This document shows positions 15,472 to 20,222 of a stretch of 64,000 nucleotides of DNA, piece by piece. Where the stretch lies: assembly GCF_017161445.1 (NCBI RefSeq), contig NZ_CP071060.1, positions 4,712,001 through 4,776,000 of the forward strand, written 5' to 3'. The stretch is from Niveibacterium microcysteis. GTDB lineage: Bacteria > Pseudomonadota > Gammaproteobacteria > Burkholderiales > Rhodocyclaceae. The notes under the pieces were generated by a model that worked only from the letters and a program-made list of their open reading frames with translations, was not told the DNA's origin and did no database searches. The translations under genes were made by a program, and so were the position numbers. Position 1 is the stretch's first letter; each line of letters begins with the position of its first letter.

Positions 15472-16206
15472 TCAGTCGCGCGACCAATCCGGGTTGGGCA
15501 GCGCGTTGAAGGCGTCGCGCAGCGCCTGGCCCCATTCGCTGCGCACGATGCTGAAGTACGGGTCTTGCGACTCGATCGAGCGGTGGCGCGCGATGCGGCA
15601 TTCGTCGGTGCGGATCAGCGCGAGATCGAGCGGCAGGCCGACCGACAGGTTCGAGCGGATCGTCGAATCCATCGAGATCAACGCGCACTTCGTTGCTTCG
15701 TCGAGCGAGGTGCCGCGCGTGATGACGCGGTCGATGATCGGTTTGCCGTACTTCGATTCGCCGATCTGGAAGTACGGCGTCTCGGGCGTCGCCTCGATGA
15801 AGTTGCCGGCGGCGTAGATGTTGAACAAGCGCGGGCGTTCGCCGCGAATCTGCCCGGCGAGGATCAGGCTGGCGGAAAAATCGATGCCGAAGGCCTGCAG
15901 CGATTCGGCGTCGCGCCGGTGCACGTCGCGAATCGTGTCGCCAACATGGCGCGCCGCCTCGAACAGGTTGGGCACGCTCCACAGGCTGGTGCCCTCGGTG
16001 CTGCTGAGGCGTTCGTTGAGCATCGTCACGATCGCCTGCGTGATCGCGAGGTTGCCGGCCGTCATCAATACCATCACCCGCTCGCCCGGGCGCTCGAAGA
16101 CATTGAGTTTGCGGAAGGAGTTGATGTGATCAACGCCGGCATTGGTGCGCGAGTCGGACAGGCACACGATGCCGGCGTCGAGGAGCATGCCGACGCAGTA
16201 GGTCAT
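15472..16206 (-). CDS. Anbu proteasome-type protease (COG3484)
   Basis: 244 residues of the Ntn-hydrolase fold. The start MTYCVGMLLDAGIVCLSDSR places the catalytic Thr at position 2, as in other Anbu proteins where Met removal exposes it; SDSRTNAGVDHI and VMVLMTAGNLAITQ are family landmarks. Anbu is the bacterial 'ancestral beta-subunit' relative of HslV and the 20S proteasome and forms an open helical or ring-like assembly; its substrate is unknown (family knowledge). It is the last gene of an operon with alpha-E and ATP-grasp proteins. The ribosome binding site is weak and two hairpins lie just upstream, so its level may be set separately from the genes before it. Confidence 0.94.
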   Translation of the reverse strand: MTYCVGMLLDAGIVCLSDSRTNAGVDHINSFRKLNVFERPGERVMVLMTAGNLAITQAIVTMLNERLSSTEGTSLWSVPNLFEAARHVGDTIRDVHRRDAESLQAFGIDFSASLILAGQIRGERPRLFNIYAAGNFIEATPETPYFQIGESKYGKPIIDRVITRGTSLDEATKCALISMDSTIRSNLSVGLPLDLALIRTDECRIARHRSIESQDPYFSIVRSEWGQALRDAFNALPNPDWSRD

Positions 16207-16307: not shown

Positions 16308-16490
16308 TCAGCCGGGCGGCGCGCCGCGCTCGGCCGGTGTCAGTTGCCAGGGCTCAGGCGCAAAGCGCCCGGCTTCGGGCTGCAGTGTGTAGGGCGTGTC
16401 TTCCAGCGGATTGGTCCACAACGCAAGCATCGCAGCGGGCGGCGTGGCAGGCGCGTCGGGCGTTGGCTGATTCGGGTGCGAACGGGTCAT
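16308..16490 (-). CDS. Small hypothetical protein in the Anbu operon
   Basis: A 60-codon frame (MTRSHPNQPTPDAP... ending ERGAPPG) lies 11 nt after the alpha-E stop. A perfect Shine-Dalgarno GAGGAGG stands 6 nt before its ATG. The peptide is proline-rich (about a fifth Pro), with no membrane segment, signal or recognisable domain, and a central LWTNPLEDTPYTL that looks like a linear motif. It occupies the position where Anbu operons in other proteobacteria usually encode a transglutaminase-like protein. It could be a substrate, an adaptor or the leftover of that gene. Its reality rests on the strong ribosome binding site and operon position. Confidence 0.6.
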   Translation of the reverse strand: MTRSHPNQPTPDAPATPPAAMLALWTNPLEDTPYTLQPEAGRFAPEPWQLTPAERGAPPG

Positions 16491-16501: not shown

Positions 16502-17449
16502 TCAGGTGGTAACGGGAACCAGGAAGTCGTCGGAGATGCGCTGGCCGAGATCGAGGATGCGTTCCAGCGCGCTGTCGAGGTAGGGATGCAAACCGTCGCG
16601 CATCAGTTCCTCGATGCGGCCGAACCGCAGGCTCGCCTCGAACTCGCCGGCGCGGCGCTGGGTCTCGGCCGAACGGCCGTTCGCCACCGCCTGCAGCAGG
16701 CCGTACACCTCGCGCATGCAGTAGGCGAGCGAACGCGGCATGTCCGGGCGCAGCAGCAGCAGCTCGGCAACGCGGCTCGGCGTGATCTGATCGCGATACA
16801 CGCGGCGGTAGATTTCGAAGGCCGACACCGAGTGCAGCAGCGCGCTCCACTGGTAGTAGTCGACCGCGGCATCGTTCGGTGTGTGGGCGCCGCGCAGCAG
16901 GTGGTACTTCACGTCGAGGATGCGCAGGGTGTTGTCCGCGCGCTCGATGAAGGTGCCCAGCCGGGTGAAGTGGAAGGCCTCGTCGCGCAGCATGGTGCCG
17001 ACGGTGACGCCGCGCGACAGGTGTGAGCGGTACTTCACCCAGTCGAAGAACTCGGTCGGGCCGGTTTCGGCGAGGCGCGAAGGGGCGAAGTCATTCACCT
17101 TCAGCCAGGTCGCGTTGATGGCCTCCCACAGCTCGGAGGTCAGCGTGCCACGCACGGTGTGCGCGTTTTCGCGCGCCGCGCGCAGGCAGGAGACGATGCT
17201 CGACGGGTTGTCGCGGTCGAACATCAGGAAGTGCATCACCGTGTCGGTGTCGATCACGTCATGTTGTGCGCGGTAGGCGCCCAGCATGCCCATGATGTCG
17301 AGCGTGGCGGTCCACTGCCGTTCGATCTCGCCGGCGCTCTGCGGCAACAGCGACATGCGGTGGTGCACATCGAGGATGCGCGCGAGGTTTTCGGCGCGCT
17401 CCATGTAGCGCGCCATCCAGTAAACGTGGTCTGCGGTACGGGACAACAT
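16502..17449 (-). CDS. Alpha-E domain protein (DUF403)
   Basis: 315 residues, all-helical. The start MLSRTADHVYWMARYMERAENLARILD is the alpha-E signature, and a second copy-like stretch GTFIERADNTLRILD follows mid-protein. Alpha-E proteins always travel with circularly permuted ATP-grasp enzymes and are thought to assist peptide-like ligation (comparative-genomics proposal for this family). Here it begins 4 bp after the ATP-grasp stop and is followed by the 60-codon ORF and Anbu, so the genes are surely co-transcribed. No catalytic residue is known for the family. Confidence 0.95.
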   Translation of the reverse strand: MLSRTADHVYWMARYMERAENLARILDVHHRMSLLPQSAGEIERQWTATLDIMGMLGAYRAQHDVIDTDTVMHFLMFDRDNPSSIVSCLRAARENAHTVRGTLTSELWEAINATWLKVNDFAPSRLAETGPTEFFDWVKYRSHLSRGVTVGTMLRDEAFHFTRLGTFIERADNTLRILDVKYHLLRGAHTPNDAAVDYYQWSALLHSVSAFEIYRRVYRDQITPSRVAELLLLRPDMPRSLAYCMREVYGLLQAVANGRSAETQRRAGEFEASLRFGRIEELMRDGLHPYLDSALERILDLGQRISDDFLVPVTT

Positions 17450-17453
17450 GTTT

Positions 17454-18875
17454 TCAGGCCTCCAGTACCCAGGTGTCCTTGGTGCCCCCGCCCTGCGAGG
17501 AATTCACCACCAGCGAGCCTTCCTTCAGCGCGACGCGCGTGAGGCCGCCGGGTACGAAACGGATCTCGCTGCCCGAAAGGACAAAGGGCCGCAGGTCGAT
17601 ATGGCGCGGCGCGATGCCGGATTCGACGAAGGTCGGGCAGGTGGACAGCGCGAGCGTTGGCTGGGCGATGTATTTCTCCGGCGCGGCGATGATGCGCTGG
17701 CGGAAGGCTTCAATCTCCGCCTTGGTCGATGCCGGCCCGACCAGCATGCCGTAGCCGCCGGCGCCGTGCACTTCCTTCACCACCAGTTCGGCCAGGTGAT
17801 CGAGCGTGTAGGCCAGATCGTCGGGCTTTCTCAGCATGTAGGTCGGCACGTTGTTGAGCAGCGGTTTCTCGCCAAGGTAGAAGCGCACCATGTCCGGCAC
17901 ATACGGGTAGATCGACTTGTCGTCCGCCACGCCCGTGCCGATCGCGTTGGCGAGCGTGACCTTGCCGGCGCGATACGCGGCAAACAGGCCCGGCACGCCG
18001 AGCATCGAATCCTTGCGGAAGGCCTGCGGATCGAGGAAGTCGTCGTCGATGCGGCGGTAGATCACGTCCACCTTGCGGCGGCCGCGGGTGGTGCTCATGA
18101 ACACGCCTTCGTGGGTGACGAAGAGATCGCGCCCTTCGACCAGTTCGATGCCCATCTGCTGCGCGAGGAAGGCGTGCTCGAAGTAGGCGCTGTTGTAGCT
18201 GCCGGGCGTGAGCAGCACCACGGTCGGGTCCGACACCCCGTTTGGCGCGACGGTGCGCAGCGTATCGAGCAGCAGGTCCGGGTAGTGCTCCACCGGCGCG
18301 ATGCGGTGGGTGGCGAAGAGGTCGGGGAAGAGCCGCATCATCATGCGGCGGTCTTCGATCATGTACGAGACGCCGGACGGCACGCGCAGGTTGTCTTCCA
18401 GCACGTAGAACTCGCCGGCGCCGGCACGCACGATGTCGACGCCGGAGATGTGCGAATAGATGCCGCCAGCGACGTCCACGCCCTTCATCTCGGGCCGGTA
18501 CTGCGCGTTCTGCAGCACCTGCTCGTAGGGAATCACGCCGGCCTTGAGGATCTCCTGGTCATGGTAGATGTCATGCAGGAAGGCGTTGAGCGTGCGGATC
18601 CGCTGCGACAGGCCGGCGGAAAGCTGCTGCCATTCGGCAGCCGGAATGATGCGGGGAATCAGGTCGAACGGAATCAACCGCTCTGTCCCCGCCGCCTCGC
18701 CATACACGGCGAAGGTAATGCCGACGCGCCGGAACAGCGCATCGGCCTGCACCCGCTTGCGCTCGATGCGTGAAGACGCGGTCGCCTCCAGCCAGCGCTC
18801 AAAGGCTTCGTAATGCGGCCGTGTCTCGCCAGCCGCGCCGTTCATCTCATCGAAGAACGCCCCGTTTGCTCCCAT
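17454..18875 (-). CDS. Circularly permuted ATP-grasp protein (type 2)
   Basis: 473 residues from the ATG at 18875, which has GGAGG six nt upstream. The protein carries the DUF404/DUF407 landmarks: RRVGITFAVYG, EQVLQNAQYRPEM, FYVLEDNLRVPSGVSYMI, then VDVIYRRIDDDFLDP, LANAIGTGVADDKSIYPYVP and KEVHGAGGYGML. These form the ATP-binding site of an amide-bond ligase whose N- and C-terminal halves are swapped relative to normal ATP-grasp enzymes. The family is proposed to make or tag peptides together with alpha-E, transglutaminase and Anbu proteins. It is the first gene of the operon, behind a sigma-54-type promoter. Confidence 0.95.
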   Translation of the reverse strand: MGANGAFFDEMNGAAGETRPHYEAFERWLEATASSRIERKRVQADALFRRVGITFAVYGEAAGTERLIPFDLIPRIIPAAEWQQLSAGLSQRIRTLNAFLHDIYHDQEILKAGVIPYEQVLQNAQYRPEMKGVDVAGGIYSHISGVDIVRAGAGEFYVLEDNLRVPSGVSYMIEDRRMMMRLFPDLFATHRIAPVEHYPDLLLDTLRTVAPNGVSDPTVVLLTPGSYNSAYFEHAFLAQQMGIELVEGRDLFVTHEGVFMSTTRGRRKVDVIYRRIDDDFLDPQAFRKDSMLGVPGLFAAYRAGKVTLANAIGTGVADDKSIYPYVPDMVRFYLGEKPLLNNVPTYMLRKPDDLAYTLDHLAELVVKEVHGAGGYGMLVGPASTKAEIEAFRQRIIAAPEKYIAQPTLALSTCPTFVESGIAPRHIDLRPFVLSGSEIRFVPGGLTRVALKEGSLVVNSSQGGGTKDTWVLEA

Positions 18876-18891
18876 GCTCGCCTCCGCGTAC

Positions 18892-18911
18892 GGCTCGCTG
18901 CGTTGCGAGCC
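18892..18911 (-). promoter_or_regulatory. 5'-end hairpin of the Anbu operon mRNA
   Basis: GGCTCGC and GCGAGCC pair perfectly around a 6-nt loop. If the sigma-54-type promoter is right (start near 18915), the transcript would begin 4 nt before this stem-loop, leaving GGAGG free for ribosomes. A 5' stem of this kind could protect the message. Confidence 0.5.
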
Positions 18912-18925
18912 GGCAGCAGGGGCTT

Positions 18926-18941
18926 TGCGAGAACTGTGCCA
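18926..18941 (-). promoter_or_regulatory. Sigma-54 (RpoN) -24/-12 type promoter of the Anbu operon
   Basis: On the minus strand the sequence reads TGGCACAGTTCTCGCA: the -24 block TGGCAC is perfect, the -12 block reads TCGCA against TTGCA, and GG and GC are exactly 10 nt apart. The predicted start site (about 18915) gives a 40-nt leader to the ATP-grasp start. The region is upstream of this operon only; the neighbouring ABC permease gene ends here. Confidence 0.6.
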
Positions 18942-19025
18942 ACCGGAAAACATGGGCTTTCCGGGTCTTCCAGGGCCGCTCATGCACGCTTACGGCGCGC
19001 GAAAACGATGGGGCGACGCGGCGGC

Positions 19026-19040
19026 GCACCAATCCGGCGC
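19026..19040. promoter_or_regulatory. NtrC-like enhancer dyad upstream of the Anbu operon
   Basis: GCACC-AATCC-GGCGC differs by one base from the NtrC half-site arrangement GCACC-N5-GGTGC seen at glnA promoters. Its centre is about 118 bp upstream of the predicted start site, a normal enhancer distance for sigma-54 activators. Confidence 0.45.
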
Positions 19041-19076
19041 ATCGCCCGGACGCGCCCCGTCGTGGTGCGTGCCCGC

Positions 19077-20222
19077 TCAGTCCAGCGTCTTGCGGAAGCG
19101 TTTGAGCCCGATGGCCAGCACGACGGTGATGAACAACAGCAGCGGCCACAGGTGTGGCCAGATCTCGACGAAACCGTTGCCCTTGAGCATCACCCCACGC
19201 GCCAGCCGCAGGAAATGGGTCAGTGGCAGCGCCTCACCGATGAACTGCGCCCAGCCCGGCATGCCACGGAAGGGGAACATGAAGCCGGACAGCAGGATCG
19301 ACGGCAGGAAGAAGAAGAAGGTCATCTGCATCGCCTGCATCTGGTTGCGCGCCACGCTCGAGATCGTGATGCCGACGACCAGGTTGGCGGCGATGAAGAC
19401 CAGCACGCCGAGCAGCAGTACCGGCTTGGTGCCGATGAACGGCACGTTGAACAGCAATCGCGCGGCAATCAGGATCAGCACCACCTGCACGAAGCCGATC
19501 AGGATGAAGGGCAGGATCTTGCCGACCATCACCTCTACCGGCCGCACCGGCGTGGCGAGCAGGTTCTCCATCGTGCCGCGTTCGACTTCGCGCGTCAGCG
19601 CGAGCCCGGTCATCATGATCATCGTCATCGTCAGGATCACGCCCATCAGGCCGGGGACGACGTTCCACGCGGTGAGCCCGTCCGGGTTGTAGCGGCGCTG
19701 CACCACCACGTCGAACGGCGGTGGCGCGGCGGCGTGGGAAGCCAGCGGGCCACCCAGGTCTCGCGCGAGCGCGCCGGGCGCCAGCTGGTTGAGCGCGGCG
19801 ATGGCGTTGCCGGTGGCCGTTGGGTCGGTCGCATCGGCGTCGAGCAGCACCTGAGCGCGTTCGCCGCGGATCAGCTTGCGCGAGAAATCTGGCGGGATCA
19901 CCAGCGCGAACTGTGCGCTGCCCTCGGCGAGCATGCGGTCAGCGTCGGCCTGCGTGGCAGAGGTGCTGAGGATGTCGAAGTAGTCTGACACCGTCAGCGC
20001 GGCGGTCAGGCTGCGCGCAAATGCGCTCTGCTCCTCGGCCACGACCACGGTCGGCAGATGCTTGGGGTCGCCGTTGATTGCGTAGCCGAACAGCGTCAGC
20101 TGGATGATCGGTATGCCGACCATCATCGCGAAGGTCAGCCGGTCGCGGCGCAGCTGGATGAATTCCTTGCGCATCACGGTGATCAGGCGCGCAAACGACA
20201 AGCCGCGCAGCAGGGCGAACAT
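19077..20222 (-). CDS. ABC-2 type transporter permease (YbhR/YhhJ-like)
   Basis: 381 residues. One N-terminal membrane segment (FAMMVGIPIIQLTLFGYAI) is followed by a large periplasmic loop (about 50-180) and five more membrane segments, including the ABC-2 signature region RGTMENLLATPVRPVEVMVGK. It forms the membrane part of an efflux pump with the ATPase at 20224 and the membrane-fusion lipoprotein at 21186. E. coli ybhGFSR has two permeases; here only one is present, which implies a homodimer. The gene starts one base after the ATPase stop. Confidence 0.93.
   Translation of the reverse strand: MFALLRGLSFARLITVMRKEFIQLRRDRLTFAMMVGIPIIQLTLFGYAINGDPKHLPTVVVAEEQSAFARSLTAALTVSDYFDILSTSATQADADRMLAEGSAQFALVIPPDFSRKLIRGERAQVLLDADATDPTATGNAIAALNQLAPGALARDLGGPLASHAAAPPPFDVVVQRRYNPDGLTAWNVVPGLMGVILTMTMIMMTGLALTREVERGTMENLLATPVRPVEVMVGKILPFILIGFVQVVLILIAARLLFNVPFIGTKPVLLLGVLVFIAANLVVGITISSVARNQMQAMQMTFFFFLPSILLSGFMFPFRGMPGWAQFIGEALPLTHFLRLARGVMLKGNGFVEIWPHLWPLLLFITVVLAIGLKRFRKTLD

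Follow-up and report, generated by a model that had tools for sequence, protein, structure and literature searches.

A predicted sigma-54/NtrC-type promoter before the Anbu protease operon of Niveibacterium microcysteis

The operon that encodes a circularly permuted ATP-grasp protein, an alpha-E protein and the proteasome-type protease Anbu in Niveibacterium microcysteis (Rhodocyclaceae) very probably belongs to the Ntr regulon: its upstream sequence points to a sigma-54 promoter at 18941..18926 that would be activated under nitrogen limitation by NtrC bound at a dyad centred at -118. Coordinates are those of the window, the whole stretch of 64,000 nucleotides (nt) analysed here (contig NZ_CP071060.1, positions 4,712,001 to 4,776,000), in which the operon lies on the minus strand. 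Control of the sigma-54/NtrC type had been proposed in an earlier note on this DNA, and it is supported by conservation of both motifs in relatives, by the helical phasing of the NtrC sites, by RpoN and NtrC genes in the same genome and by a glnA promoter of the same design. In the mechanism that we propose, nitrogen limitation would lead phosphorylated NtrC to bind the dyad, contact the promoter through a DNA loop of about nine helical turns, and drive open-complex formation by RpoN RNA polymerase. Transcription would then pass through a leader with a stem-loop and GGAGG to the ATP-grasp start, the three genes would be co-transcribed in response to ammonium supply, and the operon would presumably make a peptide ligase and an Anbu particle for nitrogen remobilisation.

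Predicted promoter elements upstream of the ATP-grasp gene

All promoter parts lie in the gap of about 200 nt between the ATP-grasp gene and an upstream ABC-2 permease gene on the same strand, whose stop is at 19077:

18926..18941, minus strand: sigma-54 -24/-12 element TGGCACAGTTCTCGCA, TGGCAC-N7-GCA, 11/12 match
19025..19041, minus strand: NtrC-type dyad TGCGCCGGATTGGTGCG, centre 19033, -118 from the predicted +1, score 11/13
18915, minus strand: predicted transcription start, placed from the GG at -25/-24
18891..18912, minus strand: leader hairpin with an 8-bp stem and a 6-nt loop, pairs 18912-18905 / 18898-18891
18881..18885, minus strand: GGAGG ribosome-binding site, predicted from sequence, before the ATG at 18875-18873

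Sigma-54 scores count matches to TGGCACRNNNNTTGCW, whose letters beyond GGcacg-N4-ttGC follow the consensus, at 12 specified positions with GG and GC obligatory; NtrC scores count matches to the consensus string TGCACYNNNNTGGTGCA or its complement at 13 positions. Published work is cited by PMC number and, unless a main text is named, from excerpts. The sigma-54 string agrees with GGcacg-N4-ttGC as printed in PMC5491218. The GG-N10-GC spacing of the window element is exact, with GG at -25/-24 and GC at -13/-12 on the minus strand, and its score was equalled by one in 200 dinucleotide shuffles of the 271-bp region. On the plus strand the dyad reads GCACC (19026-19030)-AATCC-GGCGC (19036-19040). 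A distance of 92 bp separates its centre from the first base of TGGCAC, shuffling the 250 bp above the promoter 100 times never gave a score as high, and its distance of 118 bp from the predicted start exceeds the minimum of 70 bp between an NtrC dyad and the start (PMC7408454). The 40-nt leader, with the ATG included, has a folding energy of -20.2 kcal/mol (z -1.87); by itself the hairpin counts for little as evidence. The earlier note had described the -24/-12 element, the dyad about 118 bp up, and the hairpin and GGAGG of the leader, and all are present in the order and at the distances that it gave. No sigma-70-type promoter was found in 18800-19200, which carries little weight since shuffles gave almost none too.

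Conservation and helical register in relatives

Of 150 family genomes sampled, 65 carry Anbu, and 60 regions were taken from the family, and a collection scan gave 581 confirmed Anbu places, the best 80 of which were used. Among 141 loci, the Niveibacterium window included, a co-directional ATP-grasp gene lies at most 4.5 kb upstream in 102; the other 39 lack one, in some cases only because a contig or sequence stretch ends. Removal of seven linked loci with missing upstream or N-terminal sequence and of four duplicates left 91 upstreams; duplicates were dropped only if their last 150 bases were identical, and near relatives stay among the 91.

The -24/-12 element is kept as TGGCAC[A/G]NTT[T/C]TCGCA in the window and in all three congeners examined (L112, L113 and L114), while the flanks have diverged. 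It lies at -66, -65, -66 and about -79 from the aligned start in the window and the three congeners, and this variation argues against a coding reason for its conservation. An extended ATP-grasp frame starting at 18983, which would place the promoter within coding sequence, was rejected on the same grounds, the distance varying by 1 and about 13 nt among congeners, and also because similarity to congeners begins near the ATG at 18875. L112 and L113 carry TGCGCY-N4-TGGTGC at -93 and -91 from TGGCAC, compared with -92 in the window. Both have an identical GGAGG and keep the leader hairpin with T-A replaced by C-G on both sides of the stem; the hairpin is absent from L114.

The two motifs are conserved in orthologous operons, where the earlier note had named a lack of conservation as a refutation. 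Sigma-54 scores of at least 10/12 occur in 62 of the 91 upstreams on the coding strand, compared with 2 of 91 on the reverse strand. In 66 regions a site that scores 9 or more for sigma-54 lies no further than 110 nt from the start; 39 of these regions have NtrC scores of at least 11/13, where shuffles lead one to expect about one. Both motifs together (sigma-54 at least 10, NtrC at least 11) are found in 36/91 upstreams and in none of 1480 control segments drawn from elsewhere in the same loci, in which the single-motif rates are 24/1480 and 17/1480.

The NtrC sites also keep a helical register. Their centres cluster at about -48, -60, -70, -81, -92 and -103 from the first base of TGGCAC; the sites of the window, L112 and L113 lie on this grid, as does that of the more distant congener L114 (-48). 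Phasing was calculated from the best site per similarity cluster (61 regions, 45 clusters), with only sites less than 130 bp away. The 38 sites of at least 10/13 have a mean vector R of 0.76 at 10.8 bp and the 25 sites of at least 11/13 one of 0.77 at 11.0 bp, and neither value was attained in 10000 random jitters of up to 8 bp; scores of 10 include chance sites, with about 8 expected in 66 regions. The mean vector of the 36 best sites without clustering is 0.67. We lean towards the view that the enhancer of this lineage's Anbu operons shifts only by whole helical turns, which would imply a short, stiff activation loop that holds it to one helical face, in contrast to the more tolerant enhancer of glnA. 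Anbu would then not be a housekeeping protease but an integral part, under tight phasing, of the nitrogen-starvation regulon of beta-type proteobacteria. According to a review, which face of the helix a site occupies may be less important at the glnA operon, but a two-site NtrC system of another organism is face-of-the-helix dependent (PMC7408454). This apparent helical lock is the most original result here; no description of phasing for Anbu operons was found in the literature searched, which was one open-licence library.

Genes, regulators and other promoters in the same genome

Pfam and PDB sequence matches place the ATP-grasp and alpha-E genes directly upstream of Anbu on the same strand:

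17454..18875, minus strand: circularly permuted ATP-grasp gene, 473 amino acids from the ATG at 18875; PF14403 9.4e-168, PF04174 3.5e-156 (values from a scan of the longer frame starting at 18983)
16502..17449, minus strand: alpha-E gene, 315 amino acids; PF04168 1.3e-103
15472..16206, minus strand: Anbu gene, 244 amino acids, start MTYC; PF00227 1.7e-06

The best PDB sequence match of Anbu is the designed Anbu 5loy (2.2e-99), four further PDB sequences of Anbu type match, Anbu being a protein of solved fold, and Thr directly follows the initiator Met. We take COG3484 to be the same family. The gap between alpha-E and Anbu is 295 nt and holds only a 60-amino-acid reading frame (16308-16490, minus strand), with no transglutaminase gene. 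Across the 102 linked loci the distance from ATP-grasp to Anbu is mostly about 1000 or about 1850 nt; the former, which leaves room for alpha-E alone, is common, and many relatives have room for a transglutaminase gene where the Niveibacterium locus has only the short frame.

Both proposed regulators are encoded in the genome: RpoN by a PF04552 match of 2.2e-66, and NtrC by a TIGR01818 match of 693.6 bits against a cut-off of 558.6, the sole match over the curated cut-off among 10 genome places that reach at least 250 bits with the ntrC model. The glnA promoter (L201, glutamine synthetase by Pfam) has the -24/-12 element TGGCACGCTACGTGCT with a sigma-54 score of 11/12 and, in the textbook arrangement, two NtrC sites upstream: one scores 12/13 and lies at -160 from TGGCAC, the other scores 11/13 and lies at -129.

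Two strict patterns, TGGCACRNNNNTYGCW for sigma-54 and TGCRCYNNNNTGGTGCR for NtrC, both partly shaped on the Anbu-operon site, match 12 and 6 times in the 4.85-Mb genome and are found together only at the Anbu operon; checks around the other strict matches show that the pairing is not unique by the looser score. Among the other 11 strict sigma-54 matches, two have an NtrC score of 11 within 250 nt, one ahead of a TonB-plug protein and one ahead of an NMT1-like binding protein; two have a score of 10, ahead of a molybdopterin oxidoreductase and of the L192 frame; and the remaining seven score 8 or 9. The five further strict NtrC matches include L184, with an 11/12 sigma-54 site 182 bp downstream, and L185, with a 10/12 site 264 bp away; the other three reach at most 9. 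The dyad and sigma-54 site of L184 (1501-1702) precede a frame that resembles, by eye, a branched-chain amino-acid binding protein, and their sequence suggests a likely further nitrogen-regulated promoter.

Strict sigma-54 sites stand before a PEP-CTERM protein (L189) and before the L192 frame, which has a PEP-CTERM-like end by eye, a hint that exported PEP-CTERM proteins may be so controlled. Such sites also precede the molybdopterin oxidoreductase (L196), the NMT1-like binding protein (L197) and an ANTAR response regulator (L198), and these genes look like a nitrate-assimilation set. A second amidoligase operon (L200:1710-8737; G000:C1:3085000-3099000) encodes a transglutaminase-DUF2126 protein, an ATP-grasp/alpha-E fusion and a transglutaminase; it has a possible sigma-54 site TGGTTCGCTCCTTGCT (10/12) 64 nt before its likely start and an NtrC score of 10/13 at -71.

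Published systems, rival readings and taxonomic range

The earlier note had tied Anbu to nitrogen limitation as a new physiological setting; the interpretation is supported, but the link is not new, because the response is already in print for Pseudomonas putida. Raised Anbu expression under nitrogen limitation is cited from Hervas 2008 in PMC5666114, which names P. putida, and in PMC6376114. In P. putida, expression on nitrate compared with ammonium was reported to change by a log2 of 4.44 for the gene of the proteasome subunit and of 3.99 for that of the ATP-grasp protein, together with a 3.7-fold reporter induction of the ATP-grasp promoter at nitrogen depletion (PMC8050072). Control of the P. 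putida KT2440 Anbu operon (PP_2688-PP_2685) by NtrB/NtrC has been called likely (PMC7801951).

Several observations weigh against sigma-54/NtrC control of the Niveibacterium operon. Strong cooperative activation goes with paired NtrC sites; in the window there is a single dyad, with G for A in one half-site, and a second candidate NtrC site at -120 from TGGCAC scores 10/13, a value often given by chance. Sigma-54 sites of 10/12 are missing in 29 of the 91 relatives, several Oxalobacteraceae loci among them. In P. putida, the promoter directly before PP_2685, the Anbu gene, is constitutive and nitrogen-agnostic (PMC8050072); PP_2685 hardly changed in the wild type of an RNA-seq study (1.12), and PP_2686-2688 rose 11.0- to 14.7-fold in that strain, compared with 14.2- to 19.6-fold when rpoN was mutated (PMC7801951). 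The urtABCD genes, which the same paper assigns to NtrB/NtrC, likewise were still induced in that mutant. Continued induction in the rpoN mutant, with the description of Anbu as constitutively expressed at a moderate level that several conditions did not alter (PMC5666114), would suit a reading in which the two motifs arose by chance, the genome being GC-rich, and an unrecognised housekeeping promoter transcribes the operon; the shuffle, reverse-strand, control-segment and phasing tests make this very improbable.

The dyad is, in addition, the tip of a GC-rich hairpin able to end the upstream ABC gene, and could be part of that gene's intrinsic terminator, with the sigma-54 promoter served by another activator or by a distant NtrC site. 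It begins 36 bp past the ABC stop, and the predicted hairpin (-49.1 kcal/mol) is followed by TTTT. However, the fold is no stronger than that of shuffles (z -1.22), and a terminator scan gave no match. L112 and L113 keep a similar dyad at equal distance from the promoter, although in L112 some 770 bp lie between them and the ABC permease gene upstream, and the stretches examined of L113 and L114 showed no such gene, and a terminator gives no reason for phasing across relatives. The terminator reading is thereby weakened, and we consider it improbable; activation by NtrC from the dyad remains the preferred explanation.

A class-wide sample of 323 genomes contained 83 with Anbu, from which 60 regions gave 26 usable ATP-grasp upstreams on either strand. 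Another count against general control comes from this set: sigma-54 scores of at least 10 occur in 5 of the 26 (none on the reverse strand) and both motifs in 1 of the 26. Universal sigma-54/NtrC control of Anbu was rejected on this count, which indicates that the control belongs to one lineage type and not to Anbu as such.

Among 37 distinct unlinked Anbu loci, a sigma-54 score of at least 10 lies directly before Anbu in 6 and on the reverse strand in 11; most of the reverse-strand sites are promoters of ATP-grasp genes that run divergently, and no sigma-54 promoter is proposed for Anbu itself in these loci. From loci that have no co-directional ATP-grasp gene linked to Anbu, 18 were picked by hand. 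ATP-grasp is present in 13 of them; in 12 of the 13 it is preceded by a sigma-54 score of 10-12, and the NtrC score is at most 9 in every one of the 12, so a different activator may act in this arrangement. Eight loci (L042, L064, L068, L071, L072, L073, L078 and L083) have ATP-grasp divergent from Anbu, a sigma-54 score of 11-12/12 toward ATP-grasp and NtrC scores of at most 9. Several of them also have a weaker element that faces the other way and overlaps near TTTGCAAGG or TTGCAAGG; a two-way sigma-54 promoter is not proposed, the rightward element being degenerate in several. The hand-picked set, with the ten genome places that match the ntrC model and the one among them over the cut-off, would also be compatible with a sigma-54-dependent promoter in Niveibacterium activated by another NtrC-like protein. 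That is quite unlikely for the linked operon, in which the conserved dyad fits the NtrC consensus and not just any palindrome, and glnA has a like site.

Predicted sigma-54 promoters are enriched for the COG3484 proteasome-type protease (PMC12316311); the excerpts of that paper treat COG3484 regulons and contain no treatment of NtrC sites, spacing or this operon. No mention of these genes was found in the main text of a Paraburkholderia nitrogen-starvation study (PMC5748707). In Burkholderia cenocepacia H111, I35_5080-5083 (BCAM1233-1236) are listed as common sigma-54 and NtrC targets, with DUF404/407, DUF403 and two transglutaminase-like genes and changes of -6.0 to -9.4 in the ntrC table (PMC5491218). 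DUF404/407 may be read as ATP-grasp and DUF403 as alpha-E, as in the Niveibacterium operon; however, no Anbu gene appears in the excerpts of that paper, and the cluster's content seems closer to that of the L200 amidoligase operon. The glnA promoter of the same genome shares the -24/-12 element and upstream NtrC-type sites with the Anbu-operon promoter but has two NtrC sites 31 bp apart, whereas the latter has one good site. Anbu is without known substrate, and a conserved sigma-54/NtrC promoter across dozens of related genomes suggests looking for one during nitrogen limitation; the defined enhancer spacing is a testable feature of Anbu-operon promoters. The P. putida KT2440 operon has the same gene families as that of Niveibacterium and is induced by nitrogen limitation, although it includes a transglutaminase gene (PP_2686) that the Niveibacterium operon lacks. 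This comparison covers gene content and response, and the present results would extend the P. putida nitrogen response to Rhodocyclaceae-type and other beta-type bacteria.
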